NCBI GenBank assembly: GCA_024277875.1
Contig: JAJRUI010000149.1
Coordinates: 1 to 39,894 of the forward strand
From: Deferrisomatales bacterium
GTDB taxonomy: Bacteria > Desulfobacterota > Deferrisomatia > Deferrisomatales > Deferrisomataceae
Length of the DNA stretch: 39,894 nt
Reading direction: 5' to 3'
Under the pieces are notes generated by a model that was not told the DNA's origin, made no database searches, and saw nothing but the letters and a program-made list of their open reading frames with translations. This document shows positions 9,216 to 37,006 of this stretch, one piece after another. Position 1 is the stretch's first letter. Every line of letters begins with the position of its first letter. Position numbers and translations under genes: made by a program.

Positions 9216-9801
9216 CCGCCGCGCCGAACGGGAGAACCAGATCCTGCGGGCGGCGGTCCGGGCGTTCAGCCAGCACGGGTACCATGACTGCACCGTGGCC
9301 CGGGTGGCCCGGGAAGCCGGGGTGGCCGACGGCACCCTGTACCTGTACTTCCGGAGCAAGGAAGACCTGCTGGTCAGCGCGTTCCGGCACGTGCTCGAGG
9401 GGATCCTGGACCGCCTGGACCGGGAGATGTCCGCGGCCGCCGACCCGGTGGAACGGCTCCGGCGGCTGGTGGAACTCCACCTCCAGGTGATGGAGGACGA
9501 CCCGGAGCTGGCGTCGTTCCTGCAGTTCCAGCTCCGTCAGCCCGACCCGGCCATCCGCCGGGCGATCTCGGACCCGCTGCGGGCGTACGCCCGCAGGATC
9601 GAGCGCGCTGTGGACGACGGCAAGGCCAGCGGCGTGCTCCGGCCCGAGGTGCCCACCCGGGCGGTCCGGCGGGTGCTGTTCGGGGCCATCGACGAGACCG
9701 TGTCCGCGTGGCTCCTGCACGGCCGCGACTCCCCCCTGCGCGCCCGGGCCGGCCCGATCCTGGACATCGTCCTGAACGGCGTCCGGGCCCCCCGGACGTG
9801 A
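9199..9801 (+). CDS. fadR: TetR-family fatty acid regulator, FadR-like
   Basis: 200 residues from GTG 9199, inside the 3' end of fadD. The helix-turn-helix lies at about residues 31-57 ('TVARVAREAGVADGTLYLYF', followed by 'RSKEDLL'), and the C-terminal ligand domain has the Bacillus FadR/YsiA-like stretch 'LRRLVELHLQVMEDDPELA'. In that family acyl-CoA binding releases DNA. A matching palindrome lies at the fadD promoter, so autoregulation of the fadD-fadR unit is likely, and other fad promoters may be targets. The assignment to FadR rather than another TetR member rests on neighbours, operator sequence and the C-terminal domain, not on ligand data. Confidence 0.85.
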   Translation: MAQPADRRAERENQILRAAVRAFSQHGYHDCTVARVAREAGVADGTLYLYFRSKEDLLVSAFRHVLEGILDRLDREMSAAADPVERLRRLVELHLQVMEDDPELASFLQFQLRQPDPAIRRAISDPLRAYARRIERAVDDGKASGVLRPEVPTRAVRRVLFGAIDETVSAWLLHGRDSPLRARAGPILDIVLNGVRAPRT

Positions 9802-9869
9802 CCCCGTACGCTGCGCGCCGTCCGCGCGTTCGGACGCGCTTTCACTGAACCCCATCGAGGAGGAGTTCC

Positions 9870-12269: not shown

Positions 12270-12336
12270 TCTTCGACCGCGGCCAGCACCTGGCCCGCGG
12301 ATGAACGAACCAACAGCCTCCGGAGGAGGAGATTCC

Positions 12337-13521: not shown

Positions 13522-13567
13522 TCAGCGCCGGACCTTCAACGTTCCCTTTCGATTCAAGGAGTTCGCC

Positions 13568-15340: not shown

Positions 15341-15350
15341 CCGGTCCTGC

Positions 15351-15388
15351 GCGGCGGCCCGGCCGGCACCGGGCCGCCGCTTTTTTTT
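15351..15388 (+). terminator. Rho-independent terminator after fadE
   Basis: A perfect 12-base-pair stem (GCGGCGGCCCGG with CCGGGCCGCCGC), a 6-base loop and eight consecutive T residues. It is the clearest intrinsic terminator in the window and separates the beta-oxidation operon from the lipase-fadL pair. Confidence 0.95.
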
Positions 15389-15404
15389 GCTGGAACCCGG
15401 GAAC

Positions 15405-15415
15405 AAACAATGTTT
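15405..15415 (+). promoter_or_regulatory. Possible operator ahead of the VolA-like lipase gene
   Basis: AAAC-AAT-GTTT is a perfect 4-base inverted repeat with a C before it, inside the only AT-rich stretch of this gap (TTTATATC follows). It resembles PsrA-type fatty-acid operators (CAAAC-N2-4-GTTTG), but only one half matches the outer base. A promoter must lie here because a terminator stands directly upstream; I could not fix -35/-10 boxes. Confidence 0.3.
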
Positions 15416-15468
15416 ATATCTGGCGAAATCGGTGTTCGGGTCCCCGAAACCATTGGAAGGAGGGAATC

Positions 15469-17445: not shown

Positions 17446-17511
17446 CGCCCCTGCCGGGGACCAAGGATCGAAACCGACCCGAAAACAACGCTCCGGACAG
17501 GAGGACAGACC

Positions 17512-18804
17512 ATGAGAACCAAGCTCGCAGCCGTTGCCGCGCTGGCCGCTGTCGCGGCCCTGGCGCTGCCGGCCCACCCCGCCGGCTTCCACATCCGCGA
17601 ACAGGGCGCCAAGGCCATGGGAATGGCCAACGCGTTCGTGGCCCAGGCCGACGACCCCTCGGCCATCTTCTACAATCCGGCCGGGCTGGTGTTCCAGGAG
17701 GGAACCAAGGCCAGCCTCGGGGTCACGATCATCCAGGTGCCCGAGACCGAGTTCACCGGCAAAACCTGGGTGGGCGACCCCGACCTGCCGGGCGCCGAGG
17801 TGTCGGGCAAGCAGTCCGCCCGGCCGGACGTGTTCTTCCCGCCCAACATCTACGTGACCCACACGATGAAGGACAAGCCGTGGGCGTTCGGGATCGGGAT
17901 CAACTCCCTGTACCCCCTGGCCAAACGGTGGAACACCACCACCGCGTTCCGGGACGAGGTCAAGGAACTCGCGATCAAACCGATCAACGTGAACCCCACG
18001 GTCTCGTACCGGTACAAGAACTTCGGGTTCGCGTTCGGCCTCGACTACACCAAGGCCACCTTGTGGCTCGAGAACTCCCCCTACACCACGGTGTACGACG
18101 GCAACGGCGACCCGGTGAACCTGAACGTGGGCGACCTCGAGGTGGAGGGCGAGGGCGACGGCTGGGGCTGGAACGCGGGGTTCATGTGGCGGCCGTCGGA
18201 CGCGTGGTCCTTCGGCGTCAGCTACCGCAGCGAGATCACGCGCAAGGTGGACGACGGCGACGCGGACTTCCTGGTCAGCCAGCAGGCCCAGGACCTGCTG
18301 GGTCTGCCCAGCCACGTGAACACGGGCGGCGCCACCGAGATCACCCTGCCCGACACCCTCAGCCTCGCGGTGGCGTGGAAGCCGGTGCCGGCCCTGACCC
18401 TGGAGTTCGACGTGGACCGGTTCGGATGGAGTTCCTACGACGAGCTGACCCTGGAGTTCGACGACAACCCGGTGCTCACCGACTCCACGGACCCGAAGGA
18501 CTGGGAGGACACCTGGACCTACCGCCTGGGCGCGCAGTACGCCCTGACCGACTACTTCGACCTCCGGGCCGGATACGCGTACGACAACACCCCGGTGCCC
18601 GACGAGACCCTGGGCCCGGAACTGCCCGACGCGGACCGGCACAACCTGACCCTCGGGTTCGGGTTCCACTCGGACCGGGGGGCGGTGGACTTCGCGTACA
18701 TGGCGGTGCTGTTCAAGGACCGCTCCGTGACCAACGAGAAGCAGGACGGCGAGTACAAGAGCCAGGCCCACCTGTTCGGCCTCAACGTGACCTACAACTT
18801 ATGA
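17512..18804 (+). CDS. fadL: FadL-family outer membrane long-chain fatty acid channel
   Basis: 430 residues from ATG 17512 after CAGGAGGAC. A signal peptide ends around 'LPAHPA', so the mature protein starts near 'GFHIREQGAKAMGMANAF', the conserved FadL N-terminal hatch, followed by 'ADDPSAIFYNPAGLVF' with the family NPA motif. The remainder alternates amphipathic strands with loops as in the 14-stranded FadL/OmpP1/TodX barrel, and the chain ends in 'NVTYNL'. It moves hydrophobic substrates, usually long-chain fatty acids, across the outer membrane. It lies 66 bases after the VolA-like lipase with no promoter seen between, so a lipase-plus-channel operon is likely. Confidence 0.92.
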   Translation: MRTKLAAVAALAAVAALALPAHPAGFHIREQGAKAMGMANAFVAQADDPSAIFYNPAGLVFQEGTKASLGVTIIQVPETEFTGKTWVGDPDLPGAEVSGKQSARPDVFFPPNIYVTHTMKDKPWAFGIGINSLYPLAKRWNTTTAFRDEVKELAIKPINVNPTVSYRYKNFGFAFGLDYTKATLWLENSPYTTVYDGNGDPVNLNVGDLEVEGEGDGWGWNAGFMWRPSDAWSFGVSYRSEITRKVDDGDADFLVSQQAQDLLGLPSHVNTGGATEITLPDTLSLAVAWKPVPALTLEFDVDRFGWSSYDELTLEFDDNPVLTDSTDPKDWEDTWTYRLGAQYALTDYFDLRAGYAYDNTPVPDETLGPELPDADRHNLTLGFGFHSDRGAVDFAYMAVLFKDRSVTNEKQDGEYKSQAHLFGLNVTYNL

Positions 18805-18810
18805 CCCAGG

Positions 18811-18836
18811 GGCCCCGGGGCTTACGCCCCGGGGCC
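18811..18836 (+). terminator. Terminator hairpin after fadL
   Basis: A perfect 11-base-pair stem GGCCCCGGGGC / GCCCCGGGGCC with loop TTAC begins six bases after the fadL stop. The tail TTCCCCCCTTTCC is pyrimidine-rich but not a proper T run, so termination may be partial. Confidence 0.7.
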
Positions 18837-18857
18837 TTCCCCCCTTTCCGTCCCGAT

Positions 18858-18887
18858 TTGACCCCCGGCTTTCCCGTGTGGTACTGA
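18858..18887 (+). promoter_or_regulatory. Candidate promoter for iorAB
   Basis: TTGACC (18858-18863) and TACTGA (18882-18887) with an 18-base spacer lie just after the fadL terminator and about 70 bases before the iorA start. Both boxes are moderate matches to sigma-70 consensus. Confidence 0.4.
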
Positions 18888-18957
18888 AGGGCGCCCTCTG
18901 CGGCACGCCGGCTCCGCCGGCCCTGCCCGCCGGAGGTCCCTGCCTGGAGGTCCCCCG

Positions 18958-20919
18958 TTGCCCCTGTCCCAGCACCACCGTCCCCTGCCCTCGTTGCTGT
19001 CCGGAGTCGAGGCGTGCGCCCGCGGCGCCCTGGAGGCCGGGGTCCGCCTGGTCACCGGGTATCCGGGCACCCCGGCCACCCCGGCCGTGGAGTACCTGAT
19101 GGCCGCGGCCGGGGACGAGACTCGGGTCGAGTGGGCGGTGAACGAGAAGGTGGCCCTGGAGATCGCAGCCGGCCACAGCTGGTCGGGCCAGCGCAGCTTC
19201 GTGGCCATGAAGATGTCCGGGCTCAACGTGGCCAGCGACGCGCTCCTGTCGATCGTCGCGTCCGGCACCCGGGGCGGGCTGGTGGTGTACGTGGGCGACG
19301 ACCCGGGCATGTACTACGGCATGGTGGAGCAGGACTCCCGCCTCCTGGCCCGGCTGGCCGCGTGCCCGATGGTGGAGCCCGGCACCCCGGACGAGGGCCG
19401 GGAGATGGTCCGCCACGCGTTCGAGGTGTCAGAGGCCGAGGAGGTGCCGGTGCTGGTTCGCGGCACCACCACCACGGCCAACACCGTGGCCCGGGTCCGG
19501 CCGGGCCCGACCCACCGGGAACAGCGCAGGAGCGACTTCCCGTGGGACGTGGACCGGTACACCAAGGCCGGGGCGGGAAGGTGCCTGCGCCAGCACGCCG
19601 ACGCCCTGGCGCGGTTGTCCAGGGCTGCCGAGCGCCTGGACCGGTGGAACCGGCTGGAGCCGTCCGACTCGAGGCTCGGGGTGGTGGCCACCGCGTCGGT
19701 GTGGGGCTACGTGGAGGAGGCGCTGGAGGCCGCCTTCCCCGCAGGCCTCCGCCCCAACCTGCTCCGGCTGGGGGTGGTCCACCCCGTTCCGGAACGCCGG
19801 TTGCGCGAGTTCCTGGAGCGGTGCGACCGGGTCCTGGTGGTGGAGGAACTCGAACCCGTCGTGGAGGAGAAGGCCCGGGCCGTGGCGGGCAGCCTGGCCC
19901 ACCGCACTTCGGTGCTAGGCAAGGACGACGGGCTGGGCTCTCCCGTGGGAGACCTGGACCCGGACCGGGTCCGGGCGTTCCTGGCCGTCCTGGCCCAGGA
20001 ACCGGCCACTCAGGAACCGGCCACCCAGGAACCGGCCACCCAGGAACCGGCCACCCAGGAACCGGCCACCCAGGAACCGGCCACCCAGGAACCGGCCACC
20101 CAGGAACCGGCCACCCGGTGGGCGCCCCGGCTGCTCACCTTCTGCCCGGGGTGCCCCCACCGGTCCACCTACGTGGCCCTGGAGCGGGCGATCCACCGCG
20201 CCGGGATGGACAAGGACGAGGTGGTCGTCACCGGCGACGTGGGGTGCACGATCCTGGGGATGAACCCGCCCCACGGCCTGTGTCGTACCGAGGTGGCCAT
20301 GGGTTCGAGCATCGCCGTGGCCCAGGGCATCGCTTACGCAGACGCAGGACGGCCGGTGGTGGCCACCATCGGCGACAGCACGTTCTTCCACGCGGGCATC
20401 CCACCGCTGCTCAACGCGGCGGCCCAGGGGGTCGACCTGACCGTGATCGTCCTGGACAACGGGTACGCGTCCATGACCGGGTACCAGCCGTCCCTGGGGA
20501 GCTCGGGCACCCGGGAGACCGCGCCGCCCGTGCCGATGAGCATCGAGGAACTGGCCCGGGCCGCCCGGGTCCGCCGGGTCCGCAAGGCGTTCCCGTACTT
20601 CACGTCCCGCCTCAGCCGGGTCCTCGCCCAGGCCCTCACCTCCCCGGGGGTCCACGTGGTAATCGCCGAGGCGCCGTGCGTGGGACGGCTCGTGCGGCGG
20701 ACCGTGATCCCGTACCGGGTGCTGCCGGACCGGTGCCCGGGCGTGGGGCCGTGTCCGGCGCCGTGCATGGAGGCGGTCGGGTGTCCGGCCCTGGACGTGG
20801 ACGAACCCACCAGCAAGGCCGTGGTGGACCCAGCCCGGTGCCTGGGCTGCGGCCTGTGCGCGTCCGCGTGCCCGGCGGGCGCGATCCGCCGCCACCTGCG
20901 CGGCAGGAGGCGGACGTGA
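18958..20919 (+). CDS. iorA: Indolepyruvate:ferredoxin oxidoreductase alpha subunit
   Basis: 653 residues from TTG 18958, with GGAGG seven bases upstream. It oxidatively decarboxylates aryl-pyruvates (or related 2-oxoacids) to acyl-CoA, reducing ferredoxin; thiamine diphosphate is the cofactor. Seen: 'GYPGTPATPAVEYL' and 'NEKVALEIAAGHSWSG' in the N-terminal pyrimidine-binding domain, and the TPP/metal motif 'GDSTFFHAGIPPLLNA' followed by 'IVLDNGYASMTGYQPS'. A C-terminal ferredoxin domain has one canonical cluster 'CLGCGLCASACPAG' and one with wider spacing, C-x5-C-x3-C-x5-C-P. Between the two catalytic halves, at about residues 347-386, lies an eight-fold QEPAT repeat. It overlaps iorB by one base. 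The VOR or other 2-oxoacid enzyme families are less likely given subunit sizes and order. Confidence 0.93.
   Translation: MPLSQHHRPLPSLLSGVEACARGALEAGVRLVTGYPGTPATPAVEYLMAAAGDETRVEWAVNEKVALEIAAGHSWSGQRSFVAMKMSGLNVASDALLSIVASGTRGGLVVYVGDDPGMYYGMVEQDSRLLARLAACPMVEPGTPDEGREMVRHAFEVSEAEEVPVLVRGTTTTANTVARVRPGPTHREQRRSDFPWDVDRYTKAGAGRCLRQHADALARLSRAAERLDRWNRLEPSDSRLGVVATASVWGYVEEALEAAFPAGLRPNLLRLGVVHPVPERRLREFLERCDRVLVVEELEPVVEEKARAVAGSLAHRTSVLGKDDGLGSPVGDLDPDRVRAFLAVLAQEPATQEPATQEPATQEPATQEPATQEPATQEPATQEPATRWAPRLLTFCPGCPHRSTYVALERAIHRAGMDKDEVVVTGDVGCTILGMNPPHGLCRTEVAMGSSIAVAQGIAYADAGRPVVATIGDSTFFHAGIPPLLNAAAQGVDLTVIVLDNGYASMTGYQPSLGSSGTRETAPPVPMSIEELARAARVRRVRKAFPYFTSRLSRVLAQALTSPGVHVVIAEAPCVGRLVRRTVIPYRVLPDRCPGVGPCPAPCMEAVGCPALDVDEPTSKAVVDPARCLGCGLCASACPAGAIRRHLRGRRRT
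19996..20115 (+). repeat. In-frame 15-bp tandem repeat (8 copies) inside iorA
   Basis: Eight consecutive copies of CAGGAACCGGCCACC, each encoding Gln-Glu-Pro-Ala-Thr. Seven copies are identical; the first differs by one base (ACT instead of ACC). Such near-perfect identity indicates recent slippage or unequal exchange. The period is a multiple of three, so copy number can change without breaking the frame. It falls in the linker between the two catalytic halves. Confidence 0.98.
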
Positions 20920-24920: not shown

Positions 24921-26303
24921 TCAGGTCGCCCGGAGGGGCGCAGGATCCACCGCGGACAGGTCCAGCGCCGCAGCCTCGTCGGGCAGCCCCAGGGCCACGG
25001 CCGCGAGTTGGGTCACGTACACCACCGGGATCGTGAACCCGAGGTCTGCGGCCATCTCGGGCTGGCGCTCGTCCAGGTTCACCTGGCACAGGGGGCACGC
25101 CACCGCCACCAGGTCCGCGCCCCGCTCCCGGGCCTCCTTCAGGATCTCGGCGGTCAGGCGTTTCGCGATCGCCGTGTGGGAGATCGCGAGGCTTCCGCCG
25201 CAGCAGTCGGTCTTGCGGCCCCACGGGACCGGCTCGCCCCCCAGGGCGGCCACGAACCGGTCCATCGCGACGGGGTTCTCCACGTCCACGGGCCCCAGGC
25301 CGGTGTCGGCCGGGGGCCGGGTAAGCAGGCAGCCGTAGTAGCACGCGACCCGGAGTCCGTCCAGGGGGCGCTCCACCCGGTCGGTCCACCCGTCGGGTGC
25401 GACGTCCAGGAGCCCGTCCAGGGCGTTGAGCACCGCCACCCGGTCGCCGTAGGCGCGGCCGCCCATGGCCTCCTCGGCGCGACCGGCCAGGTCCCCGTCC
25501 TCCCGGTAGTGGCGCACGGCCGACCGGAGCCGGCCGTAACACGCGGCGCACGGGGCCACGACCCGGTCGAGCCCCATCTGCTCGACTGTGGACAGGTTCT
25601 GGAGCGGCAGGGTCACGGCGCGCACCGGGTCGGCGCCGTGGGCCGGGGTTGTGCCGCAGCAGGTCCACCCGGGGATCTCCACCAGATCCACCCCGATCGC
25701 GCCGGCCACCGCCCGGAACGACCGGTCGAACGCGACGCCCGTGGCGTGCAGGGAGCACCCGGGGTAGTAGGCGAGGCGGTGGGGTGCCGGCTCCACGGCT
25801 GCCACGCGCCGGGGCGGGCGGGCGAACTCCGGGGCGAGCCGGATCTTCCCCTTTCGGATCATCCGGAGGCCCATGTCCAGGTCCCGCAGGGGCTTGCCCT
25901 CCCGCAGGTTCAGCTCGCCCATCAGCCCCGCCTCGTACACCCGGCCGAACACCCGGATGTTGCGCAGGAACGCCTTGAAGAATCGGGCCGTCTCCGGCAC
26001 CGACGCGCGGTCCAGGGTCTCCTGGCGGAACCAGTCGATCACGGCCGGGATGTCCAGGGCGTGGGGGCACCGGGTGACGCAGGTCTGGCACTGGGTGCAC
26101 AGCCACACGGTGCGACTCGCGAGCACCTCGGGGTCGTCTTCCTGCACCGCCAGCATCACTTCGCTGGGCAGGAGGTCGAACTCCTCGGCCATCTCGCACC
26201 CGGCCGAGCACCGCTGGCACTGGTAGCACAGGTGCGCGTTCACCCCCGTGGCCCGTTCCACCCGGTCGGCCAGGGTTTCGTCGATCGTCGCGTTCGCGTT
26301 CAT
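24921..26303 (-). CDS. hdrCB: HdrC-HdrB fusion, heterodisulfide reductase-like
   Basis: 460 residues from ATG 26303 with GGAG five bases upstream. The N-terminal ~170 residues are HdrC-like with two [4Fe-4S] motifs, 'CYQCQRCSAGC' (followed by Glu, not Pro) and 'CTQCQTCVTRCP'. The rest is HdrB: two CCG domains, the first with 'YPGCSLHATG', 'WTCCGTTPAHG' and 'APCAACYG', the second with 'CYYGCLLTRPP', 'DCCGGSLAISH' and 'VACPLCQVN'. In methanogens HdrB holds two non-cubane clusters and reduces CoM-S-S-CoB. Here there is no sign of that substrate, and by context HdrCB is the electron path to or from MetFV. It is the fifth structural gene of the hdr-met operon. The fusion of the two subunits in C-then-B order is seen in the reading frame directly. 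Confidence 0.9.
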   Translation of the reverse strand: MNANATIDETLADRVERATGVNAHLCYQCQRCSAGCEMAEEFDLLPSEVMLAVQEDDPEVLASRTVWLCTQCQTCVTRCPHALDIPAVIDWFRQETLDRASVPETARFFKAFLRNIRVFGRVYEAGLMGELNLREGKPLRDLDMGLRMIRKGKIRLAPEFARPPRRVAAVEPAPHRLAYYPGCSLHATGVAFDRSFRAVAGAIGVDLVEIPGWTCCGTTPAHGADPVRAVTLPLQNLSTVEQMGLDRVVAPCAACYGRLRSAVRHYREDGDLAGRAEEAMGGRAYGDRVAVLNALDGLLDVAPDGWTDRVERPLDGLRVACYYGCLLTRPPADTGLGPVDVENPVAMDRFVAALGGEPVPWGRKTDCCGGSLAISHTAIAKRLTAEILKEARERGADLVAVACPLCQVNLDERQPEMAADLGFTIPVVYVTQLAAVALGLPDEAAALDLSAVDPAPLRAT

Positions 26304-26333
26304 CGTCTCTCCGTCGGAACCGGGGACCACGAC

Positions 26334-27323
26334 CTACCCCTCGGCCGCCGCGCCCAGGGGCTCGGGCCGGGGCAGGAGACCTGCGCCCTCCACGATCGGA
26401 CGCACCGCCTCTTCCCACTCGATCGCCATCACGTGGACGCCGGCCACCCCCGGGATCTCCCGCACCTGTTGGATCTGCTCGACGCACAGCCGGATGCCCT
26501 CGGCCCGCCACGCCTTCTGCCGCTCGGCCTTGTCGTCGATGCCCGCCCCGGCCGCGGTCATCCGTTCCACCACCTCGTCGGGCATGTCGATGCCGGGCAC
26601 GTTGTCGCGCATGTACTTGGCCATGCCGGGCCCCTTGAGCGGGCTCAGACCGGCCATCACGTGCACCTTGTCCAGGACGCCCAGGTCCCCCAGGCGGGCC
26701 ATGAACTCCCGGAACTTCTCCATGTTGTAGATACACTGGGTCTGGAGGAACTCGGCGCCGGCCCTCACCTTCTTCGCCACCCTGAACGGCCGGTACGCCA
26801 CAGGGTCGGCGAACGGGCTCTCCACCGCGCCCACGAAAAACCGCGGGGGGTCGCCTTCCAGGGCCTCGCCGTTGGCGAAGACCCCCTGGTCGCGCATCTC
26901 GGCCAGCAGTTTCACGAGCTGGATCGAGTCGATGTCCCACACGTTCTTGGCCGTCGGGTGGTTGCCGAACGTCTGGTGGTCGCCGGTGAGGCACAGCACG
27001 TTGCGGAGCCCCAGGGCCCACGCGCCGAGCAGGTCGGCCTGGATCGCCAGGCGGTTGCGGTCCCGGGTGGTCATCTGGACCACGGGTTCGAGCCCCTCGT
27101 CCCGGGCCAGGGCCGCCGCCGCGATGGACGACATCCGCACCACCGCGGTCTGGTTGTCGGTGATGTTCACGGCGTCCACCGAGCCGCGCAGCAGCCGGGC
27201 CTTGTCCCGAACTACTGCCGGGTCGGCCCCTTTCGGTGGCCCGAGTTCGCCGGTGACGGCAAAGCCGCCGGAGGACAGCACGCGGCTCAGGTTGGTCTCG
27301 ACGGTTCGGCTTTCGGGTGCCAT
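26334..27323 (-). CDS. metF: Methylene-tetrahydrofolate reductase catalytic subunit (MetF)
   Basis: 329 residues from ATG 27323 after AGGAGGAG. It has the MTHFR barrel: 'FAVTGELGPPKGADP' (the conserved early Glu), 'VDAVNITDNQTAVVRMSSI', 'NVLCLTGDHQTFGNHP' and 'GAEFLQTQCIYNMEKF'. The enzyme reduces 5,10-methylene-THF to 5-methyl-THF using FAD. The neighbouring MetV gene marks it as the type that lacks an NAD(P)H site of its own and receives electrons from iron-sulfur partners. The Hdr and MvhD genes around it suggest the hexameric complex described from Moorella. Confidence 0.92.
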   Translation of the reverse strand: MAPESRTVETNLSRVLSSGGFAVTGELGPPKGADPAVVRDKARLLRGSVDAVNITDNQTAVVRMSSIAAAALARDEGLEPVVQMTTRDRNRLAIQADLLGAWALGLRNVLCLTGDHQTFGNHPTAKNVWDIDSIQLVKLLAEMRDQGVFANGEALEGDPPRFFVGAVESPFADPVAYRPFRVAKKVRAGAEFLQTQCIYNMEKFREFMARLGDLGVLDKVHVMAGLSPLKGPGMAKYMRDNVPGIDMPDEVVERMTAAGAGIDDKAERQKAWRAEGIRLCVEQIQQVREIPGVAGVHVMAIEWEEAVRPIVEGAGLLPRPEPLGAAAEG

Positions 27324-27369
27324 GGGCTCCTCCTGGCGGTGGCGGTGGCTCATCCGGCGGGCAGGGGAC

Positions 27370-28062
27370 TCACGTCCCGGCCCCGTCCTGGGCGTCCCGG
27401 ACGAGGTCTTCGCGCACGATCCGGCCGGGCCCTCCGTCCCGGGCTGCCCGCCAGTTCTTGGGCTCGTGCACCTCGGCGAGCCGCTCCAACTCGCCCCGCG
27501 AGGTCAGCCGCTCCACGATCTCGTGCCACGCGCACGGGATCGCGTCGTCCACCTCGCACTTGCCGTCGTGGGACCCGCCGCACGGACCGTTGAGCAGGCT
27601 CTTGGAGCACCGGGCCACAGGGCAGATGCCGTCGGTGTAGTCCAGCACGCAGTCGCCACACCCGGCGCACCGCTCCTCCCACACCCCGTGCCGGGTGGGC
27701 AGCCCGTAGAACCGCGTGTCGAGCCCGGGCACCATCCGGGCCTCGGGGAACCGCTCCACGATCGCCTGGGCGCCCACCCCGCACCCCAGACTCACCACCA
27801 CGTCGGCCTGCCGGATCCGGTCGGCCGCGGTGTCCAGGTACTCCCACTCGCACTGGCGTTGCACCGTGAGGTGGGCAGCGTCGAGTTCGCGGCCGTCGAG
27901 CCGGGCTTTCATGCGCAGGGCGCTGGCCAGGATCTCGGCCTCCTTGTCCCCCCCGGCAAAGCACACGGTCACGCAGGTGCCGCACCCCAGGACCAGGGCC
28001 GTCTGGGCTCCGGCCGCCATCTCCAGGATCTTGGCCACGGGTTTCTGCTCGGCAACGATCAT
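27370..28062 (-). CDS. metV: MetV, zinc/iron-sulfur partner of MetF
   Basis: 230 residues from ATG 28062 with AGGAG upstream. It matches the 'MTHFR C-terminal' family MetV: N-terminal 'GCGTCVTVCFAGGDKE', a central 'VVSLGCGVGAQ', and a C-terminal Cys array starting 'CAGCGDCVLDYTDGICPVA' and continuing 'CSKSLLNGPCGGSHDGKCEV'. In acetogens MetV is obligatory for the MetFV-type methylene-THF reductase and carries [4Fe-4S] clusters and zinc. It lies between mvhD and metF, separated from each by about 30-46 bases. Confidence 0.92.
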   Translation of the reverse strand: MIVAEQKPVAKILEMAAGAQTALVLGCGTCVTVCFAGGDKEAEILASALRMKARLDGRELDAAHLTVQRQCEWEYLDTAADRIRQADVVVSLGCGVGAQAIVERFPEARMVPGLDTRFYGLPTRHGVWEERCAGCGDCVLDYTDGICPVARCSKSLLNGPCGGSHDGKCEVDDAIPCAWHEIVERLTSRGELERLAEVHEPKNWRAARDGGPGRIVREDLVRDAQDGAGT

Positions 28063-28092
28063 CGGCGTCTCCTGTGGGCGGCTGGCCCGGGC

Positions 28093-28554
28093 CTACCCGT
28101 CCGCGGCCTCGGCCGGGACCGGGCCGTCCGGTTCCGCCCCGGCCGGTCGGCCCAGGGGGTTGGGCCCCAGGGCCCGGACCTGTTCGGACATCTCGGTGCA
28201 CACCTCGGCGAACCGGGCCCCCTGGGCGCTGGACAGGTTGAACATCCGGACCCGCTGCCCCCCGAGCCCGATCTCGTCGAGCAGGGAGGCGGCGTACTGG
28301 ACACGGCGTGCTGCGTTCGTATTACCTTCCAGGTAATGGCAGTCGCCCTCCAGTCACCCGGCGACCATCACGCCGTCGGCGCCGTGCTCGAACGCGGCCA
28401 GCACGTGGGCCGCGTCCAGCTTGCCGGTGCACGGCAGGCGCACCACCCGGATTCCTTCCGGGTAATCCAGGCGCATCGCCCCGGCCAGGTCGGCCGCGCC
28501 GTACGCGCAGTGGATGCAGCAGAACGCCACGATTCCCGGTTCGAACTCACCCAT
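28093..28554 (-). CDS. mvhD: MvhD-family electron carrier read as a selenoprotein (in-frame TGA = Sec67)
   Basis: Read through the TGA at 28354-28356, the frame runs from ATG 28554 to TAG 28093 and gives 153 residues, the normal size of the MvhD/FlpD/FrhD family; stopping at TGA would give only 66. Family features lie on both sides of the TGA: 'FEPGIVAFCCIHCAYGAADL' with the Cys-Cys-x2-Cys cluster motif and 'RLPCTGKLD' before it; 'LEGDCHYLEGN' and 'GLGGQRVRMFNLSSAQGARF' after it. Sec67 falls at the first Cys of the family motif G-C-H-x-G-D-C-H-Y. MvhD carries a [2Fe-2S] centre and passes electrons to HdrA. A hairpin with bacterial SECIS geometry follows the TGA. The gene starts one base after the HdrA stop. 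A nonsense mutation is the alternative, but the intact downstream frame and hairpin argue against it. Confidence 0.88.
28321..28356 (-). promoter_or_regulatory. Bacterial SECIS-like hairpin after the mvhD UGA
   Basis: On the minus strand the UGA is followed after 16 bases by ATTACCT-GGA-AGGTAAT, a perfect 7-base-pair stem with a 3-base loop starting with GG (28321-28337). Known bacterial SECIS elements are short stem-loops within about 16-37 bases after UGA with a G among the first two loop bases. This fits. It lies inside coding sequence (His-Tyr-Leu-Glu-Gly-Asn), as required. Confidence 0.8.
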
Positions 28555-28555
28555 G

Positions 28556-31500
28556 TCAGCACCCTCCGCTCGCGGTGTTTTCGGTGCGGGTTCCCCTGTA
28601 CGGGGTGTGCCCCTCCAGCAGGCCGACCACTGCCGCGCCCACCTGGTCGTCGGTGAAGTGGGCCACCTGGATCGCGTTGGCCGGGCACGCCCCGGCGCAC
28701 ACTCCGCACCCGTGGCACGTGGCCGGTTCGATGTACGCCGCCCCGGCGATGCCCCCGGAACCGACCCGGTCGGCCCGCATCTCGGGCACCTCGTACGGGC
28801 ACACCCGGACGCAGGTCAGGCACCCGGCACACAGCTGCTCGTCCACCCGGGCCACTGCCCCCTCGGACCGCAGCCTCTCCTTGGACAGAACGGTCACCGC
28901 CCGGGCCGCGGCCGCCCGGGCCTGTGCCACGGACTCGCCCAGGAACTTGGGGTAGTGGGCCAGGCCGGCCAGGTACATCCCGTCGGACTGGAAGTCCACG
29001 GGCCGGAGCTTTACGTGGGCCTCCAGGAAGAACCCGTCCGCGTCCAAAGGCACCTTGAGGCGGGTCGCCAGATCCCGGCCGTCCTCCCGGGGCACCATGG
29101 GCTCGGCCAGCACCAGCATGCGGGGCCGCAGGGTGGCGGCCCGCCCCGTGGCCGCGTCCACGTAGTCCACCCGTACGCTGTTCCACTCCACCGACACCTC
29201 GGGCGGCCGGGCCTCGTCGTACCGCCGGAACCGCACCCCCCGGCGCCGGGCCTCGGTATAGAGCCGTTCCTTAAACCCGTAGGTGCGGACGTCCTTGTAC
29301 AGGATCGTGACCTCCGCGTCGGGCCGGAGTTCCTTGAGCACCAGCGCGTCCTTGATCGCCGTGGTGCAGCAGGTGCGGGCGCAGAACTTCTCGGCCGGCC
29401 CCACGCACAGGATCATCGCGACCCGGTCCGGCAGGGACCGGGCGGTCAGGCCGGGCGTGGCGTCGTGGCCGTTGCCCCCGGCCTTGCGGTACAGGAACTC
29501 CTCGAAGTCCAGGGCGGTCACGACGTCCGGGTGGCTGCCCAGGCCGTACTCCGGTCCCCGGTACTCCCGGGCTCCGGTGGCCACGATCACCACCCCGTGC
29601 TCGACCCGTACGATTTCACCGTCCGGCCGTTCCAGCACGCTCGTGAAGTTGCCCCGGAACCCGCCCGTCTCGGCCACCTCGGTGCCCTGGTACACCTGGA
29701 CGTTCGGGTGGGTGGCCGTCCGCCGGACCAGATCGTGGAGAAACCCGGCCGGGCTCTTGCCGCTCTCCAGGAACCGCACGCGCAGGAGGTTGCCTCCCAA
29801 CTCCGGGGTCTTCTCGACCAGGTGCACCGGGTAGCCTTGATCGGCCAGGTCCAGGGCCGCGGTCATGCCCGCCACCCCTCCCCCGATCACCAGGGCCGAT
29901 TTGCGCACCGGGAACTCCAGGGCGTTGATCGGCGCGAGCCGGGCGGCCCGGGCCACCGCAGCCCGCACGAGGTCCATGGCCTTCTCCGTGGCGCCCTCCC
30001 AGTCCCCGGCGTGCACCCACGAGCAGTGGTTGCGGATGTTGGCCATTTCGAACAGGGCCGGGTTCAGGCCGGCCGCGCGCACCGCGTCCTGGAACAGGGG
30101 TTCGTGGGTCCGGGGGCTGCACGACGCCACCACCACCCGGTTCAACCCCTGTTCCTTCACCGTCTCGGTGATGTGGACCACGGTGTCCTGGCTGCACGTG
30201 TACAGGTTGGCTTCGGCGTGGACCACGCCGGGCAGGCCGGAGACGTACTCGGCCACGGACGGTACGTCCAGGAAACCGCCGATGTTCGAACCGCAGTGGC
30301 ACACGAACACCCCGACCCGGGGCGGCTCCCCGGCCACGGCCCGTTCGGGCGGGAACGACGCCTCCACGGTCAGGGTGCCCCGGGCCGCGGCGAGCAGGGT
30401 TCCGGCCCTGCACGCGGCACCGCTGGCCTCCACCACGGTCTCGGGGATGTCCTTGGGCTCCCGGAACGGCCCGGCCACGTAGATCCCGGGCCGGCTCGAC
30501 GCCAGGGGCGCGAACAGACTCGTGTGACAGAACCCGTAGTCGTCCAGGGCCACCCCCAGCCGGCCGCCCAGCTCGCGTACGGCCGGGGAGATCTCCATGC
30601 CGACCGACAGCACCACCAGGTCGAACCGGTCCGTGTGCACCTTGCCGCCCTTCGCGGACCGCACCAGCAGGTCCCCGGTGGCCGGGTCCTCCAGGACCCG
30701 GGAGATCCGGCACCGCTCGTACCGGATCCCGTACTTGTCCCGGGCCCGGCGGTAGTATTCGTCGTACCCCTTGGAGAACGACCGGGTGTCCATGAAGAAC
30801 ACGGTCACCTCGGTGCCGGGCTCGTGTTCCACGGCCATGATCGCTTCCTTGGCCGCGTACATGCAGCACACGCTCGAACAGTAGTCGTGCTCCTGGTCCC
30901 GGCTGCCCACGCACTGGAGGAACGCGATCCGTTGCGGCGTGCGGCCGTCGCCGGGCCGGCGCACGTGGCCCTGGGTCGGGCCCGACGCCGACAGCATCCG
31001 CTCGAACTGCATCGCGGTGACCACGTTTGGGTACCGCCCGAACCCGTACTCCTGGCTCAGCCGGGCGTCGTAGAGCTCGTACCCGGGGGCGAGGACCACC
31101 GCGCCGACCGTGAGTTCCTCCTCGCCGGGCAACTCTTCGTGAACCACCGCACCGGCCTTGCACGCGTCCACGCACGCGTGGCACTCCGAACACACCCCGC
31201 ACGCCAGGCACCGGGCCGCCTCGGCCCGGGCCTCGTCCTCGGTGTATCCCAGGCTCACCTCGTCGAACGTCTCCCGCCGCTTGCCCGGGTCCAGGGTCTG
31301 GACCCCGAGCCGGCCCTGGCGCTGCAACTCGCCCCGCTCCACCCGCTCGAGGAGCTCCTCCTGGTCTATCTCGGCCACGGGGAGCCGGTCTCCCACCTCG
31401 GGCTCCAAGGTCTCGCCCCGCAGGAACGCGTGGATGCCCCGGGCCGCCTTGTGGCCGGATGCCACGGCCTCGATCACGTACGCCGTACCCGTGGTGCTGT

Positions 31501-33100
31501 CACCGGCCGCGAACAGGCCGGGCCGGGCCGTGGCGCAGGTCTCCGGGTCCACGGCCACCGTGTTCTGGGGCGTGACCTCCACCCCGGCGTCCTCGGGCAG
31601 GAACGCGAGCCCGGCCCGCTGTCCCACCGAGAAGATCACGTTGGTGCACGCCACCTCGTACTCCGAGCCCTCCACCGGCACCGGCCGGCGCCGACCATTC
31701 TCGTCGGGTTCGCCGGGGCGCATCTTCTGGAGCCGCACCCCCCGGACCCGGCCGTCCGGCCCGGCCAGCACCGCCACCGGGTTGGAGAAGAAGTGGAACG
31801 CGACCCCTTCCTCTTCCGCGTGCTCGATCTCCAGGGGGTCGGCCGACGCGTCGTCCCGGGACCGGCGGTAGTGCACCTCCACCTCGCTGCCCAGCCGCAC
31901 CGCGGTGCGCGCGCAGTCCATGGCCACGTTTCCTGCGCCCACCACCACCACCTTCTCGCCCAGTTCCGGCGGGTTGCCCAGGCGCACGTCCCGCAGGAAC
32001 GTGGTGTTGGTGAGCACCCCGGGCAGGTCCGCGCCGGGAATGGGCAGCCGGATCCCCTCGTGGGCGCCCACCGCCACCAGCACGGCAGAGAACCCCTCGG
32101 AGAACAGGGCGTCCACGTCGGTCACCGGGTGGTCGAGCTTCAACGCGACCCCGAGGTCCACGATCTCCCGGACCTCCCGGTCGATGATCGTGTCGGGCAG
32201 CCGGTACTCGGGCACGCCCACCCGCAACATCCCACCCGCCACGGGCAACGCCTCGAACACGGTGACCGCGTAGCCGCGCTGGCACAACTCCCGGGCTGCG
32301 GTGAGCCCGCACGGCCCTGCCCCGATCACGGCCACCCGCTCGTCGAACCGGCGCTCGGCCGGTTCGGGGGGCTCGTACGGCTGCTCGTACACCCAGTCGG
32401 TGACGAACCGTTTCAGCGCGCGGATGTCCAGGGCCTCGTCCACCTTGGCCCGGGTGCACGCGTCCTCGCACCGGTGGTTGCAGATCCGGCCGCAGATGCC
32501 GGGGAACGGGTTGTCGAGCTTGATCGTCCGGAGGGCGGCGTCGTAGTCGCCGTTGCGGATGTGGGCGATGTAGCCCTGGGCCCGCTGGCCGGCCGGGCAC
32601 GCGTCCCGGCACGGGCTGACCCCGCGCTTCTCGATCGCGTACGCATTGGGCACGGCCTGGGGGTACAGCTTGTGGGCGGCCTTCTGGCGGACGAGGCCCT
32701 CGTCGAACCGGCCCGGGATCTCCACCGGGCACACGGTCTCGCAGTCGCCGCACGCGGTGCACTTGTCCGGGTCGATGTACCGGGGGTTCCTGAGCAGGCG
32801 TACCCGGAAGTTCCCGGCCTCGCCCTCGAGGCCGCCGATCTCCACCCCGGTGAGGACGTCGATGTTCAGGTGCCGGCCCACGTCCACCAGCTTGGGGCTG
32901 ATGGTGCACATGGCGCAGTCGTTGGTCGGGAACGTCTTGTCCAACTGGGCCATGTGGCCGCCGATGGCGGTCTTCTTCTCGGCCAGGTAGACCTTGTACC
33001 CGCTCTCGGCCAGGTCCAGGGACGCCTGGATGCCCGCGATCCCGCCGCCGACCACCAGCACCGATCCCGTGACGTCGGCGTTGCCCGAAACCTCACCCAT
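28556..33100 (-). CDS. hdrA: HdrA-GltD-HdrA fusion flavoprotein (1514 residues)
   Basis: Starts at ATG 33100 with GAGGGG upstream; a longer frame to 33184 adds only an unconserved Arg-rich leader. Residues 13-160: HdrA FAD domain ('VLVVGGGIAGIQASLDLAES', 'TNDCAMCTISPKLVDVGRH') and ferredoxin motif 'CTACGDCETVCP'. Residues about 160-650: an inserted GltD/NfnB-type module ('CRDACPAGQRAQGYI', 'GICGRICNHRCEDAC', FAD site 'VAVIGAGPCGLTAA', second nucleotide site 'VVVVGAGNVAMDCARTA', 'FAAGDSTTG') ending in a Cys array 'CLACGVCSECHACVDAC'. Residues 660-905: the rest of the first HdrA unit. Residues 928-1514: a complete second HdrA ('VFVCHCGSNIGGFLDV', 'VASCSPRTHEPLF', 'ALVIGGGVAGMTAALDLA') with two C-terminal ferredoxin motifs ('CAGCLTCVRVCP', 'CHGCGVCAGACP'). 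It is the likely flavin-based electron-bifurcating core, with the GltD part as a candidate NAD(P)H site. Confidence 0.92.
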   Translation of the reverse strand: MGEVSGNADVTGSVLVVGGGIAGIQASLDLAESGYKVYLAEKKTAIGGHMAQLDKTFPTNDCAMCTISPKLVDVGRHLNIDVLTGVEIGGLEGEAGNFRVRLLRNPRYIDPDKCTACGDCETVCPVEIPGRFDEGLVRQKAAHKLYPQAVPNAYAIEKRGVSPCRDACPAGQRAQGYIAHIRNGDYDAALRTIKLDNPFPGICGRICNHRCEDACTRAKVDEALDIRALKRFVTDWVYEQPYEPPEPAERRFDERVAVIGAGPCGLTAARELCQRGYAVTVFEALPVAGGMLRVGVPEYRLPDTIIDREVREIVDLGVALKLDHPVTDVDALFSEGFSAVLVAVGAHEGIRLPIPGADLPGVLTNTTFLRDVRLGNPPELGEKVVVVGAGNVAMDCARTAVRLGSEVEVHYRRSRDDASADPLEIEHAEEEGVAFHFFSNPVAVLAGPDGRVRGVRLQKMRPGEPDENGRRRPVPVEGSEYEVACTNVIFSVGQRAGLAFLPEDAGVEVTPQNTVAVDPETCATARPGLFAAGDSTTGTAYVIEAVASGHKAARGIHAFLRGETLEPEVGDRLPVAEIDQEELLERVERGELQRQGRLGVQTLDPGKRRETFDEVSLGYTEDEARAEAARCLACGVCSECHACVDACKAGAVVHEELPGEEELTVGAVVLAPGYELYDARLSQEYGFGRYPNVVTAMQFERMLSASGPTQGHVRRPGDGRTPQRIAFLQCVGSRDQEHDYCSSVCCMYAAKEAIMAVEHEPGTEVTVFFMDTRSFSKGYDEYYRRARDKYGIRYERCRISRVLEDPATGDLLVRSAKGGKVHTDRFDLVVLSVGMEISPAVRELGGRLGVALDDYGFCHTSLFAPLASSRPGIYVAGPFREPKDIPETVVEASGAACRAGTLLAAARGTLTVEASFPPERAVAGEPPRVGVFVCHCGSNIGGFLDVPSVAEYVSGLPGVVHAEANLYTCSQDTVVHITETVKEQGLNRVVVASCSPRTHEPLFQDAVRAAGLNPALFEMANIRNHCSWVHAGDWEGATEKAMDLVRAAVARAARLAPINALEFPVRKSALVIGGGVAGMTAALDLADQGYPVHLVEKTPELGGNLLRVRFLESGKSPAGFLHDLVRRTATHPNVQVYQGTEVAETGGFRGNFTSVLERPDGEIVRVEHGVVIVATGAREYRGPEYGLGSHPDVVTALDFEEFLYRKAGGNGHDATPGLTARSLPDRVAMILCVGPAEKFCARTCCTTAIKDALVLKELRPDAEVTILYKDVRTYGFKERLYTEARRRGVRFRRYDEARPPEVSVEWNSVRVDYVDAATGRAATLRPRMLVLAEPMVPREDGRDLATRLKVPLDADGFFLEAHVKLRPVDFQSDGMYLAGLAHYPKFLGESVAQARAAAARAVTVLSKERLRSEGAVARVDEQLCAGCLTCVRVCPYEVPEMRADRVGSGGIAGAAYIEPATCHGCGVCAGACPANAIQVAHFTDDQVGAAVVGLLEGHTPYRGTRTENTASGGC

Positions 33101-33135
33101 GATCTTCCCCTCGGATGCGATCGAGATTCGCGCAA

Positions 33136-33251
33136 GCCGCAGAACGCGGCCTGCGGCGCCGCCCCGCCCCTGTTCCTGCTGCACGGCCCGGGGCAGGGCC
33201 CGTTGGCACGCCGCCGCGCGCGAACTCAGTGGCGTCCCACGCGCGGCGGCG
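33136..33251 (-). repeat. Two inverted repeats in the hdrA leader
   Basis: The 219-base gap between the receiver-like gene and hdrA holds GCCGCAG-N8-CTGCGGC (33136-33157) and a perfect 12-base inverted repeat CGCCGCCGCGCG / CGCGCGGCGGCG (33209-33220 with 33240-33251). No T run follows on the minus strand. They may fold the leader mRNA or mark RNA processing between the two genes. Confidence 0.6.
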
Positions 33252-33319: not shown

Positions 33320-33799
33320 CTAGACCCGCTTGGTGACGAACGAGTACTCGGGCACGGCCTCTCCGGCCGCCTCCCACGCCGCGTCCCGGGCCTCCTGGCG
33401 GTCCAGGTACGCGAACACCATGTTCTCGATCGCGTCGCTGGTGTAGTCGGTGGTGATCAGGTCGTCGGCCATGTCCAGGATCTCGATCCCCTCCTGGTAC
33501 CCGGTGCGGTACACCAGGGTGCTGGGGATCGGGAGCACCAGCATCACGCCGGTGCGGGTGGCCCGGAAGTCCTCCTGGATCAGTTCCATCAGGCCCGACC
33601 CGTCCGCTTCCCGGTACGGGAACGTGGTGTGGAGCAGCACCAGGGTGGGCCGGCGGCCCAGCACCGCGGCGCGACACGCGCCCACGTCGTGGACCTCCTC
33701 GATCCGCAGGCCCTGGCGGGCCCGGGACAGGATGCGCCGCAGGGAGCGGCTCCGGTTGCGGTCGGTGTCGATGATCATGACGTCGGCGTGGCGATCCAT
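33320..33799 (-). CDS. Degenerate receiver-domain protein at the head of the hdr-met operon
   Basis: 159 residues from ATG 33799 after AGGAGGATCCC. The fold looks like a CheY receiver: 'DVMIIDTDRNRSRSLRRIL' gives the acidic pocket (Asp11, Asp13), 'PTLVLLHTTFP' is the beta-3 strand, 'GVMLVLPIPS' beta-4 and 'DDLITTDYTSDAI' the beta-5 region. The phosphorylatable Asp is replaced by His57 and the conserved Lys of beta-5 is absent, so it should not be phosphorylated in the ordinary way. There is no output domain; a C-terminal helix of about 40 residues follows. It lies first after the sigma-54 promoter and before hdrA. Role unknown; protein-protein signalling to the Hdr complex or a regulatory adaptor are possibilities. 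Confidence 0.7.
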   Translation of the reverse strand: MDRHADVMIIDTDRNRSRSLRRILSRARQGLRIEEVHDVGACRAAVLGRRPTLVLLHTTFPYREADGSGLMELIQEDFRATRTGVMLVLPIPSTLVYRTGYQEGIEILDMADDLITTDYTSDAIENMVFAYLDRQEARDAAWEAAGEAVPEYSFVTKRV

Positions 33800-34102: not shown

Positions 34103-35431
34103 TCAGGCGAGGCCGAACCGTTTCATCTTGCGGTACAGGGTCTTTCGGTCGATCCCCAGCACCCGGGCCGCTTCGGTGCGCTGGCCGTCGCACGCCCGTA
34201 GCACCAGGTCCACGTGATCGCGCTCCAACTCTTCCAGGGTGGGGAACCGTTTGCGGTGACCGGGCCGGTTCTTCAGCAGATACGCGGGAAGGCTCGACGG
34301 TCGCAACGTGCTCGACTCTTCGATCAGGACCGCGCGTTGGATGATGTTCTCCAACTCCCGGATGTTGCCGGGAAAGTTGTAGCCCGACAGGACCGACAGG
34401 AACCCGGGCGCCACCTCCCGGATCGTCTTGTGCATCTTCGGGGCGTAACGCCCCACGAAGTGCCGCACCAGGTCGGGCAGGTCCTCCATCCGGTCCCGCA
34501 GGGGCGGCAGGTGGATCGGGAACACCGCGAGCCGGTAGTACAGGTCCTCCCGGAACTCGCCGGCGGCCACGGACTTCTCTAGGTCGGCGTTGGTGGCCGC
34601 GATGATCCGCACGTCCACCTTGCGGGCCGACGTCCCCCCCACCGGCTTGATCTCCCGTTCCTGGAGCACCCGCAGGAGCTTGGCCTGGGTCTCGGCACCG
34701 AGGTTGCCCACCTCGTCCAGGAAGAACGTGCCGCCGTTGGCCAGTTCGAACAGGCCGTGCTTGGGCGCGTGGGCGCCGGTGAACGCGCCCTTCACGTGGC
34801 CGAACAACTCGCTTTCCAGGAGGGGGCCGGCCAGCACCGAGCAGTCCACGGCCACGAACTCGGAGTCCTTGCGGCCGGAGAGCTGGTAGATCATCCGGGC
34901 CACCACCTCCTTGCCGGTGCCGCTCTCGCCGGTGATCAGCACGCTGGTGTCGGCGCCCGCCACCTTCTCGATCAGCGCGTTCACCTCCCGCATCCGGGGG
35001 CTCGCGCTGATCACGAACCGGCCGGACCGGGCCTCGAGCTGGCGGCGCAGCTGCTCGTTCTCGAACCGGAGACGGCGGCGCTCCTCGGCCCGGGCCGTTG
35101 TGATGCGCACCTCCTGGGGGGAGAATGGCTTGGGCAGGTAGTCGTACGCACCCAGCCGGAACGCCTTGAGCACGTTGTCGATGGACGGGTAGCCCGTGAT
35201 GATGATCACGATCACCTCGGGATCGAGCTCCCGCATCCGGACGAGCACCTCCATGCCGTCCAGCCCGGGCATCTTCAGGTCCAGGAACACCGCGTCGTAC
35301 GCGCCGGACTCGAAGCACTCCAGGCCCGACCGGCCGTCCGGACACGCGGTCACCTCGTGCCCCATCCTCTGGAGGGTCTTGGCCAGCCCTTCCCGGATCG
35401 AGCGCTCGTCGTCCACGATCAGGGTTCGCAC
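34103..35431 (-). CDS. NtrC-family sigma-54-dependent response regulator
   Basis: 442 residues from GTG 35431, overlapping the kinase gene by 13 bases. The receiver has phospho-acceptor Asp51 in 'AVFLDLKMPGLDG', plus 'IIITGY' and 'YDYLPKPFSP' with the conserved Lys. The AAA+ domain has Walker A 'GESGTGKE', the sigma-54 contact loop 'GAFTGA', Walker B 'GGTFFLDEVG' and 'LYYRLAVFPIHLPPLRDR'. A Fis-type helix-turn-helix ends the protein ('TEAARVLGIDRKTLYRKMKR'). It should activate RpoN promoters when phosphorylated. The only -24/-12 promoter I see is the next one downstream, in front of the hdr-met operon, so that is its likely target. Confidence 0.93.
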   Translation of the reverse strand: MRTLIVDDERSIREGLAKTLQRMGHEVTACPDGRSGLECFESGAYDAVFLDLKMPGLDGMEVLVRMRELDPEVIVIIITGYPSIDNVLKAFRLGAYDYLPKPFSPQEVRITTARAEERRRLRFENEQLRRQLEARSGRFVISASPRMREVNALIEKVAGADTSVLITGESGTGKEVVARMIYQLSGRKDSEFVAVDCSVLAGPLLESELFGHVKGAFTGAHAPKHGLFELANGGTFFLDEVGNLGAETQAKLLRVLQEREIKPVGGTSARKVDVRIIAATNADLEKSVAAGEFREDLYYRLAVFPIHLPPLRDRMEDLPDLVRHFVGRYAPKMHKTIREVAPGFLSVLSGYNFPGNIRELENIIQRAVLIEESSTLRPSSLPAYLLKNRPGHRKRFPTLEELERDHVDLVLRACDGQRTEAARVLGIDRKTLYRKMKRFGLA

Positions 35432-36924
35432 GACTCCCCCTCGGGCATCGGGAACACCACGGTGAACGTGGTCCCCCCTTCGGCCCCGTCCCCCACCCGG
35501 ATGTCGCCCCGGTGCATCCGCATGATATTGTAAGACAAGCTGAGCCCCAGGCCGGTGCCCCGGCCCGGCTCCTTGGTGGTGAAGAACGGCTCGAAGATCC
35601 GGGCCCGCACCGGCGGCGGCATGCCCGGGCCGGTGTCGGTGAACGACACCCACACCTCGCCACCCGACGCGTCACACCCCGACCGGAGCACCAGCCGCCC
35701 CTCCCCCTCCATCGCGTCCACCGCGTTGGTGACGATGTTGGTGAACACCTGCTTGATCTGGCTGGGGTTGCCCACGACCAGGGGCAGGTTGTCGGCCAGC
35801 GCCCGCTCCACCTCCACGTTGTGGAACAGGGCCTTGCCACCCAGCAGGGCCATGCACTGGTCCACGGCCGCGTTCAGGTCCACCGGCTCCTGGTACCGCC
35901 GGCGCTGGTGGGCGAAGTCGAGCAGGGAGTTGACGATCTCCTTGCACCGGCGGGCCTCCTGGACGATCCGGTCCATGTCTTCGCGCCGGGGATCGGAGAA
36001 GTCCATGTCCTCGAGCAACAGGCCGCCGAACAGCAGGATCCCGCCAAGGGGGTTGTTGATCTCGTGGGCCACCCCCGCGGCCAGCTTGCCCAGGGACGCC
36101 ATCTTGTCGGCGTGGATCAGTTGCATCTGCACCTCTTCCAGCCGGCGTTCCACCTCGGCCATCGGGCGCATGTCGCGCACGAACGTCACCGTGCCCGACT
36201 CCTGCCCGTCCTCGCCGTAGAGCAGGTGCATGGTGAGCCACACGGGCACCCGCTCCCGGGCCCGGGAGATCAGGATCGCCTCGTACCCGTCCAGAAACCC
36301 GGCGCCGCCGTGGTCGGCGGCCCGGGAGCGGTTCATCACCTCGTGGGCCGCGTTGCCCTCGTAGAACTCCTGGATGTACTTGCGGCCCACCACCTCGTCC
36401 TCGGAGAACCCGAGGAGTTCCCGTGCGCCCCGGTTGAACAGGGTGATCCTGCCCCGGGCGTCGGTGACGATGATCGGCTGGAGGGCCGGGGCGAGCACGC
36501 TGCGCAGGAACCGGGTCTCGGCGGCCAGGGCCGCCTGCCGGCCCGCACGGTCGGTCACGTCGGTCAGGTACGCGGCCACCAGCCGCCGTTTTTCGGACAG
36601 GCGGACGAGGATGAGGGACACCTCGATGTCCCGGCGCGGCCGCAGGGGGATCTCGAGGACCAGGTCGAGGTGGTCCCGGCCGGACGGCCGGGACCGGAGC
36701 TTCTGGACCGCCCGGTCCAGCCGCGCCCCGGCGTCGCCCAGGCAAAACCGGACGTCCTGGCCCGGGACCTGGTCCGGGGGCACGCCGGTCCACGCCGAGA
36801 ACGCCCGGTTCGCCCACCGGATCCGGCGGGTGCTCGGCGCGAACAGCACCACCGCCTGGTCCGCCTCTTCGAGCGCGGCGGTCAGGATGCGCAACAGCTG
36901 GCTGTCGGTGGGGCGGCCCGCCAT
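35419..36924 (-). CDS. PAS-domain sensor histidine kinase
   Basis: 501 residues from ATG 36924, chosen because GGGAG lies six bases upstream; an ATG two codons earlier is too close to that site. Two PAS domains are visible (about residues 12-120, 'TRRIRWANRAFSAWTGVPPD'; and 140-265, 'GRITLFNRGARELLGFSEDE'), then HisKA with the phosphorylated His in 'KLAAGVAHEINNPLGG' and an HATPase with 'NIVTNAVDAM', 'DTGPGMP' and 'GTGLGLSLSYNI'. No membrane segment is seen, so it senses a cytoplasmic signal. It is followed by its NtrC-type partner with a 13-base overlap. Neither PAS domain shows a Cys or His pattern that would reveal a cofactor. Confidence 0.92.
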   Translation of the reverse strand: MAGRPTDSQLLRILTAALEEADQAVVLFAPSTRRIRWANRAFSAWTGVPPDQVPGQDVRFCLGDAGARLDRAVQKLRSRPSGRDHLDLVLEIPLRPRRDIEVSLILVRLSEKRRLVAAYLTDVTDRAGRQAALAAETRFLRSVLAPALQPIIVTDARGRITLFNRGARELLGFSEDEVVGRKYIQEFYEGNAAHEVMNRSRAADHGGAGFLDGYEAILISRARERVPVWLTMHLLYGEDGQESGTVTFVRDMRPMAEVERRLEEVQMQLIHADKMASLGKLAAGVAHEINNPLGGILLFGGLLLEDMDFSDPRREDMDRIVQEARRCKEIVNSLLDFAHQRRRYQEPVDLNAAVDQCMALLGGKALFHNVEVERALADNLPLVVGNPSQIKQVFTNIVTNAVDAMEGEGRLVLRSGCDASGGEVWVSFTDTGPGMPPPVRARIFEPFFTTKEPGRGTGLGLSLSYNIMRMHRGDIRVGDGAEGGTTFTVVFPMPEGESCEP

Positions 36925-36936
36925 CGGCATCTCCCG

Positions 36937-36971
36937 AATCGGTGATCGGTGATCGGTGATCGGTAACCGGT
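36937..36971. repeat. 7-bp tandem repeat upstream of the kinase gene
   Basis: Five consecutive heptamers AATCGGT, GATCGGT (three times) and AACCGGT. It lies between the kinase start and its probable promoter, so it would be in the 5' leader of the kinase mRNA. Confidence 0.85.
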
Positions 36972-36976
36972 GATTC

Positions 36977-37006
36977 ATCTTGTGCAGATCGGATTGATCC
37001 TGTCAA
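36977..37006 (-). promoter_or_regulatory. Candidate promoter for the kinase-regulator pair
   Basis: The minus strand has TTGACA (complement of 37001-37006), an 18-base spacer and CAAGAT (complement of 36977-36982). The -35 is perfect and the -10 weak. The start of the kinase gene lies about 53 bases further on, behind the heptamer repeat. Confidence 0.45.

Follow-up and report, generated by a model that had tools for sequence, protein, structure and literature searches.

Introduction

Selenocysteine (Sec)-containing MvhD/VhuD proteins are listed in current selenoprotein tables (PMC13188914), and four Sec-MvhD genes have been reported in one Desulfobacterium genome (PMC2702500), which bears out the preliminary description of the present locus, according to which Sec-containing proteins of the MvhD/FrhD type were already known. 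In Desulfobacterium autotrophicum, the bacterial Sec-MvhD proteins MvhD1, MvhD2, MvhD3, and MvhD5 are encoded beside HdrA or HdrL, in one case together with sulfite-reduction genes (PMC2702500). In Moorella thermoacetica, the genes for MvhD, MetV, MetF, and HdrB/HdrC lie together with a gene for a large HdrA that carries a GltD insert, forming the MetVF-HdrABC-MvhD cluster (PMC9430772).

Here, we analyzed a window of 39,894 nucleotides from a Deferrisomatales bacterium (assembly GCA_024277875.1, contig JAJRUI010000149.1, positions 1 to 39,894). Judged from its sequence and conservation, one gene of this window very probably encodes a Sec-containing MvhD subunit of a Moorella-type, Hdr-linked methylene-tetrahydrofolate (THF) reductase.

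Results

Gene content and order of the operon

All genes of the operon are located on the (-) strand. They encode HdrA (about 1542 aa; 28556-33184), MvhD (28093-28554), MetV (27370-28062; PF12225, 3e-35), the methylene-THF reductase MetF (26334-27353; PF02219, 2.4e-33), and an HdrCB fusion with a 4Fe-4S dicluster and two CCG domains (24921-26330; PF02754, 2.8e-18, and Fer4 matches). Using hmmscan, HdrA was resolved into a Rossmann/Fer4 region, a GltD-like NAD(P)H/FAD domain, the HdrA body, a second HdrA-type unit, and a Fer4 pair, an architecture that agrees, like the approximate size, with that of Moorella HdrA (PMC9430772). By gene content, the operon is that of a Moorella-type Hdr methylene-THF reductase, with a predicted activity, and its setting is unlike that of the D. 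autotrophicum genes. In contrast to Moorella, HdrC and HdrB are fused, which matches a deep-sea Chloroflexi cluster (PMC5736913); hdrCB follows metF also in the order-mates.

Upstream on the same strand, a small ORF of 159 aa (33320-33799; no Pfam match) is syntenic in the order-mates with 48-70% identity, and it is preceded by genes for a sigma-54 response regulator (34103-35653; PF00158, PF00072) and a PAS histidine kinase (35419-36978; PF02518, PF00512), both of which are likewise syntenic and linked upstream. The order histidine kinase, sigma-54 regulator, small ORF, hdrA, mvhD, metV, metF, hdrCB results, and order-mates possessing an mvhD orthologue share it as far as the contigs reach. 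The kinase and the regulator (34103-36978), with their upstream position conserved in the order, may control the operon. MetV is about 65% identical to Chloroflexota proteins, compared with 47-48% for the Desulfobacterota compared. Because the operon (24921-33184) is closer to Chloroflexota than to these Desulfobacterota, its sequence suggests that it moved between phyla. At three loci (L145, L150, and L151, in genomes G003, G009, and G010), a Cys-only hdrA-mvhD-metV-metF-hdrCB set directly adjoins the Sec set; this neighboring copy is a possible selenium-independent backup.

The flanking of mvhD by metV, metF, hdrA, and hdrCB, in conserved order, confirms the MetFV-Hdr setting that it had been assigned at the outset. 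A genuine Sec protein could, however, work outside the MetVF reaction with another partner, such as a distinct hydrogenase or formate dehydrogenase acting with HdrA. Proteins of this type can dock with more than one donor, VhuD for instance with both Vhu and Fdh (PMC6019823), and in Sporomusa MetVF and Hdr/MvhD failed to co-purify as a stable complex and were connected by pull-down only (PMC9430772). In that pull-down, however, it was MetF and HdrA that were retrieved with MvhD (PMC9430772), and hdrA and metV flank mvhD in all order-mates examined as well as in Chloroflexota. We consider service to another partner unlikely, and the assignment of MvhD to the Hdr-linked methylene-THF reductase is retained in the following.

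The operon may not be the sole methylene-THF reductase of the organism, because the genome contains two additional MetV-like genes; a reading as the only one was not supported. CODH/ACS is present in the genome, while no dsrA gene, as a marker of sulfate reduction, was found over the cut-off. The (+) strand of the window contains a fatty-acid degradation set (7404-20919) with genes for an AMP-binding ligase, a TetR regulator, a 3HCDH/ECH fusion, a thiolase, an acyl-CoA dehydrogenase, a FadL-type porin, and a 2-oxoacid:ferredoxin oxidoreductase. In this organism, the pathway could operate in either direction, acetogenic or fatty-acid-oxidizing.

An in-frame TGA at a conserved cysteine position of mvhD

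The mvhD reading frame extends from an ATG (28554-28552) to a TAG (28095-28093) on the (-) strand and, with TGA translated as Sec, encodes 153 aa; the TGA of codon 67 (28356-28354) is its sole internal stop. The profile search yielded a PF02662 (FlpD) match of 1.2e-47 with 161.4 bits, compared with a gathering score of 22.3, and residues 8-130 cover the entire profile (1-123 of 123), running across the TGA. The best match among solved VhuD/MvhD chains is 9sfi_K (9.1e-40). The preliminary description of an MvhD-family frame interrupted at codon 67 was thus correct.

Residue 67 is specified by a Cys codon or TGA in 133 of 133 homologues covering the residue, and nearly all homologues without the hairpin described below use a Cys codon here, in accordance with the initial proposal that the TGA occupies a family Cys position. 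The motif proposed with it, GCHxGDCHY, has to be amended: the window gene reads G-U-LEGDCHY, and the form with 'H' belongs to a paralogous group, but Sec67 does lie inside the motif. Each homologue has Cys or Sec at residues 13, 16, 42, 67, and 72, and this conserved set is predicted to hold a [2Fe-2S] cluster. Twelve genomes of the order were searched, and an mvhD orthologue was found in nine, including the window's own, but not in G001, G002, and G004. All nine orthologues (9/9) contain TGA at codon 67 and an identical hairpin, and the order-mate proteins are 76-83% identical to the window protein.

A SECIS hairpin downstream of the TGA

In bacteria, SelB together with GTP and Sec-tRNA-Sec binds a hairpin just past the UGA, such that the ribosome inserts Sec and termination does not occur. 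The candidate bacterial SECIS hairpin of mvhD (28321-28337, (-) strand) was evaluated by folding and conservation. Its arms, ATTACCT (28337-28331) and AGGTAAT (28327-28321), form seven perfect pairs around the loop GGA (28330-28328); 16 bases separate the TGA from the hairpin and 23 nt the UGA from the loop. The perfect 7-bp stem with a GGA loop, sixteen bases past the TGA, had been noted before at these positions, and its linkage to TGA was found to extend across the phylum: in 395 phylum genomes, the pattern with TGA occurred at 98 sites in 76 genomes, whereas the pattern with a Cys codon (TGY) occurred at a single site.

The hairpin codes for H-Y-L-E-G-N, using codons that are rare in this G+C-rich neighborhood (CAT, GGT, and AAT account for 6.5%, 6.9%, and 2.2% of their codon families, respectively). 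Given the amino acids and local codon usage, the joint probability of the five relevant codons in CAT-TAC-CTG-x-GGT-AAT is about 6e-5. Among the nine same-order mvhD genes, the hairpin codons are synonymously invariant in 6/6 cases, compared with 11/70 other amino-acid-invariant codons, and invariant codons with A or T as third base occur only in the hairpin. Sorted by class, the hairpin is present in 18 of 19 Sec67 genes (the exception is L051), 0 of 80 Sec16 genes, and 1 of 31 Cys/Cys genes. The 18-base hairpin word, when any base is allowed at one position of the Glu/Asp codon, also follows TGA67 in a Desulfobacterota paralogue of 44% identity (L026 and others).

At two loci, L049:6167-6559 (TGT67) and L170 (G015:C543:3021-3056), a Cys67 codon is followed by the intact Sec hairpin. 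Both look like recent Sec-to-Cys conversions in which the SECIS was left over, as does the lone TGY site of the 395-genome scan. In Sec16 genes (e.g. L138, L142), the stretch after TGA16 has the hairpin word ACCTGGNAGGT in common with the stretch after TGA67. An Rfam gathering scan yielded no match; the search with Rfam SECIS_1 also yielded none here, but, because it gave no match in any control genome either, this result is uninformative.

Sec insertion in general competes with termination, and TGA67 might accordingly act as a regulatory early stop that yields a functional product of 66 residues, Sec read-through being rare or absent. Such a product would be devoid of residues 67 and 72, the positions that are Cys or Sec in all 133 covering homologues; moreover, the downstream frame is conserved and the hairpin is tied to TGA (98 TGA sites versus one TGY site), so that an early stop appears very improbable. 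That TGA is a true stop in a pseudogene or a sequencing error, the downstream frame being a relic, has next to no probability. The sole point in favor of this reading is that ORF callers would give two fragments. The conservation of the gene in several genera of the order already refutes it: nine species have the same TGA, with 76-83% protein identity to the window gene before as well as after this codon, and synonymous variation is lowest within the hairpin. Neither decay of the downstream frame nor loss of the SECIS, which the preliminary description had regarded as fatal to its reading, was found in close relatives. Sec insertion at codon 67 has the highest certainty that sequence evidence can give.

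Sec machinery and further selenoprotein genes of the genome

The Sec reading also presupposes the respective machinery, and all four components named in this regard are encoded in the genome, i.e. selA (3.9e-171), selB (343 bits summed), selD (2.5e-110), and the tRNA-Sec gene selC (72.2 bits, anticodon TCA). The selD gene (L018, G000:C42:12346-13269) contains an in-frame TGA of its own, which is followed by the hairpin GTCCGAC-GGTCCT-GTCGGAC with 7 bp and a loop starting with GG; SelD is probably an independent second selenoprotein candidate. A second Sec-type mvhD of the same genome (L153, G000:C23:31907-32326) has its TGA at residue 16 and adjoins another hdrA.

Two alternative Sec sites

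The distribution of Sec over residues 16 and 67 was compared in 131 distinct bacterial mvhD genes from loci that had been picked by similarity to one query. Sec16/Cys67 was found in 81 genes, Cys16/Sec67 in 19, Cys/Cys in 31, and Sec/Sec in none. Matches with '2 TGA' were considered as double-Sec genes and each was read; in each case the protein had Sec16 and Cys67, and the other TGA was located outside it or at its end. The MetFV-linked MvhD proteins of Desulfobacterota (e.g. L024, L025, L026) likewise contain Sec and are encoded adjacent to hdrA, metV, and metF, with 59-61% identity, but their Sec is at residue 16 and their Cys at 67, opposite to the window gene. With residues 16 and 67 masked, the well-supported branches of a tree required the Sec67 label to change at least four times, and the window gene grouped with Chloroflexota genes (100/96), apart from the Sec16 MetFV-linked Desulfobacterota genes.

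The archaeal chain K of PDB 9sfi belongs to the same FrhD/MvhD/VhuD family (PF02662). It contains two non-standard residues (X), which align to residues 16 and 67 of the window protein, whereas the window gene has a single Sec with an adjacent in-frame hairpin; archaeal SECIS elements sit in the 3' UTR (PMC1088965). The X letters alone are no proof, but we read them as Sec in view of the multiple Sec residues reported for archaeal FrhD/VhuD (PMC13188914). We tentatively put forward that bacterial MvhD carries Sec at 16 or 67 but never at both, with repeated switches, and archaeal VhuD at both. Because the independent changes are few and the loci were chosen via one query, this is a lead and not a law. 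If true, a single cluster would have sites 16 and 67 as interchangeable partners, and the requirement of one in-frame hairpin per bacterial UGA may explain the restriction.

Discussion

Of the five invariant Cys/Sec positions of MvhD (13, 16, 42, 67, and 72), four would bind a [2Fe-2S] cluster in the proposed complex, and the protein would shuttle single electrons between the HdrA flavins and a partner protein. HdrA would additionally bind NADH through its GltD domain, and electrons would presumably flow from HdrA to HdrCB and on to MetV and MetF. Sec67 might tune the potential of the cluster or its resistance to oxidation. By analogy with MvhD of the methanogen complex, the subunit may be the site of electron entry, as the preliminary description had assumed.

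Because Sec-MvhD, which also occurs in many anaerobic relatives, is an already listed selenoprotein family, the window gene only adds to it, in a known operon type, and the novelty is modest. The new detail is which of the two cysteine sites, 16 or 67, carries selenium. Automatic annotation will truncate the MvhD subunit, so that the selenoprotein is overlooked in most of an order, and the truncation also hides the likely selenium dependence of the methylene-THF reductase complex. The alternative Sec sites represent a natural experiment on the role of selenium in a [2Fe-2S]-bearing electron-transfer subunit of a complex of the flavin-bifurcating type.
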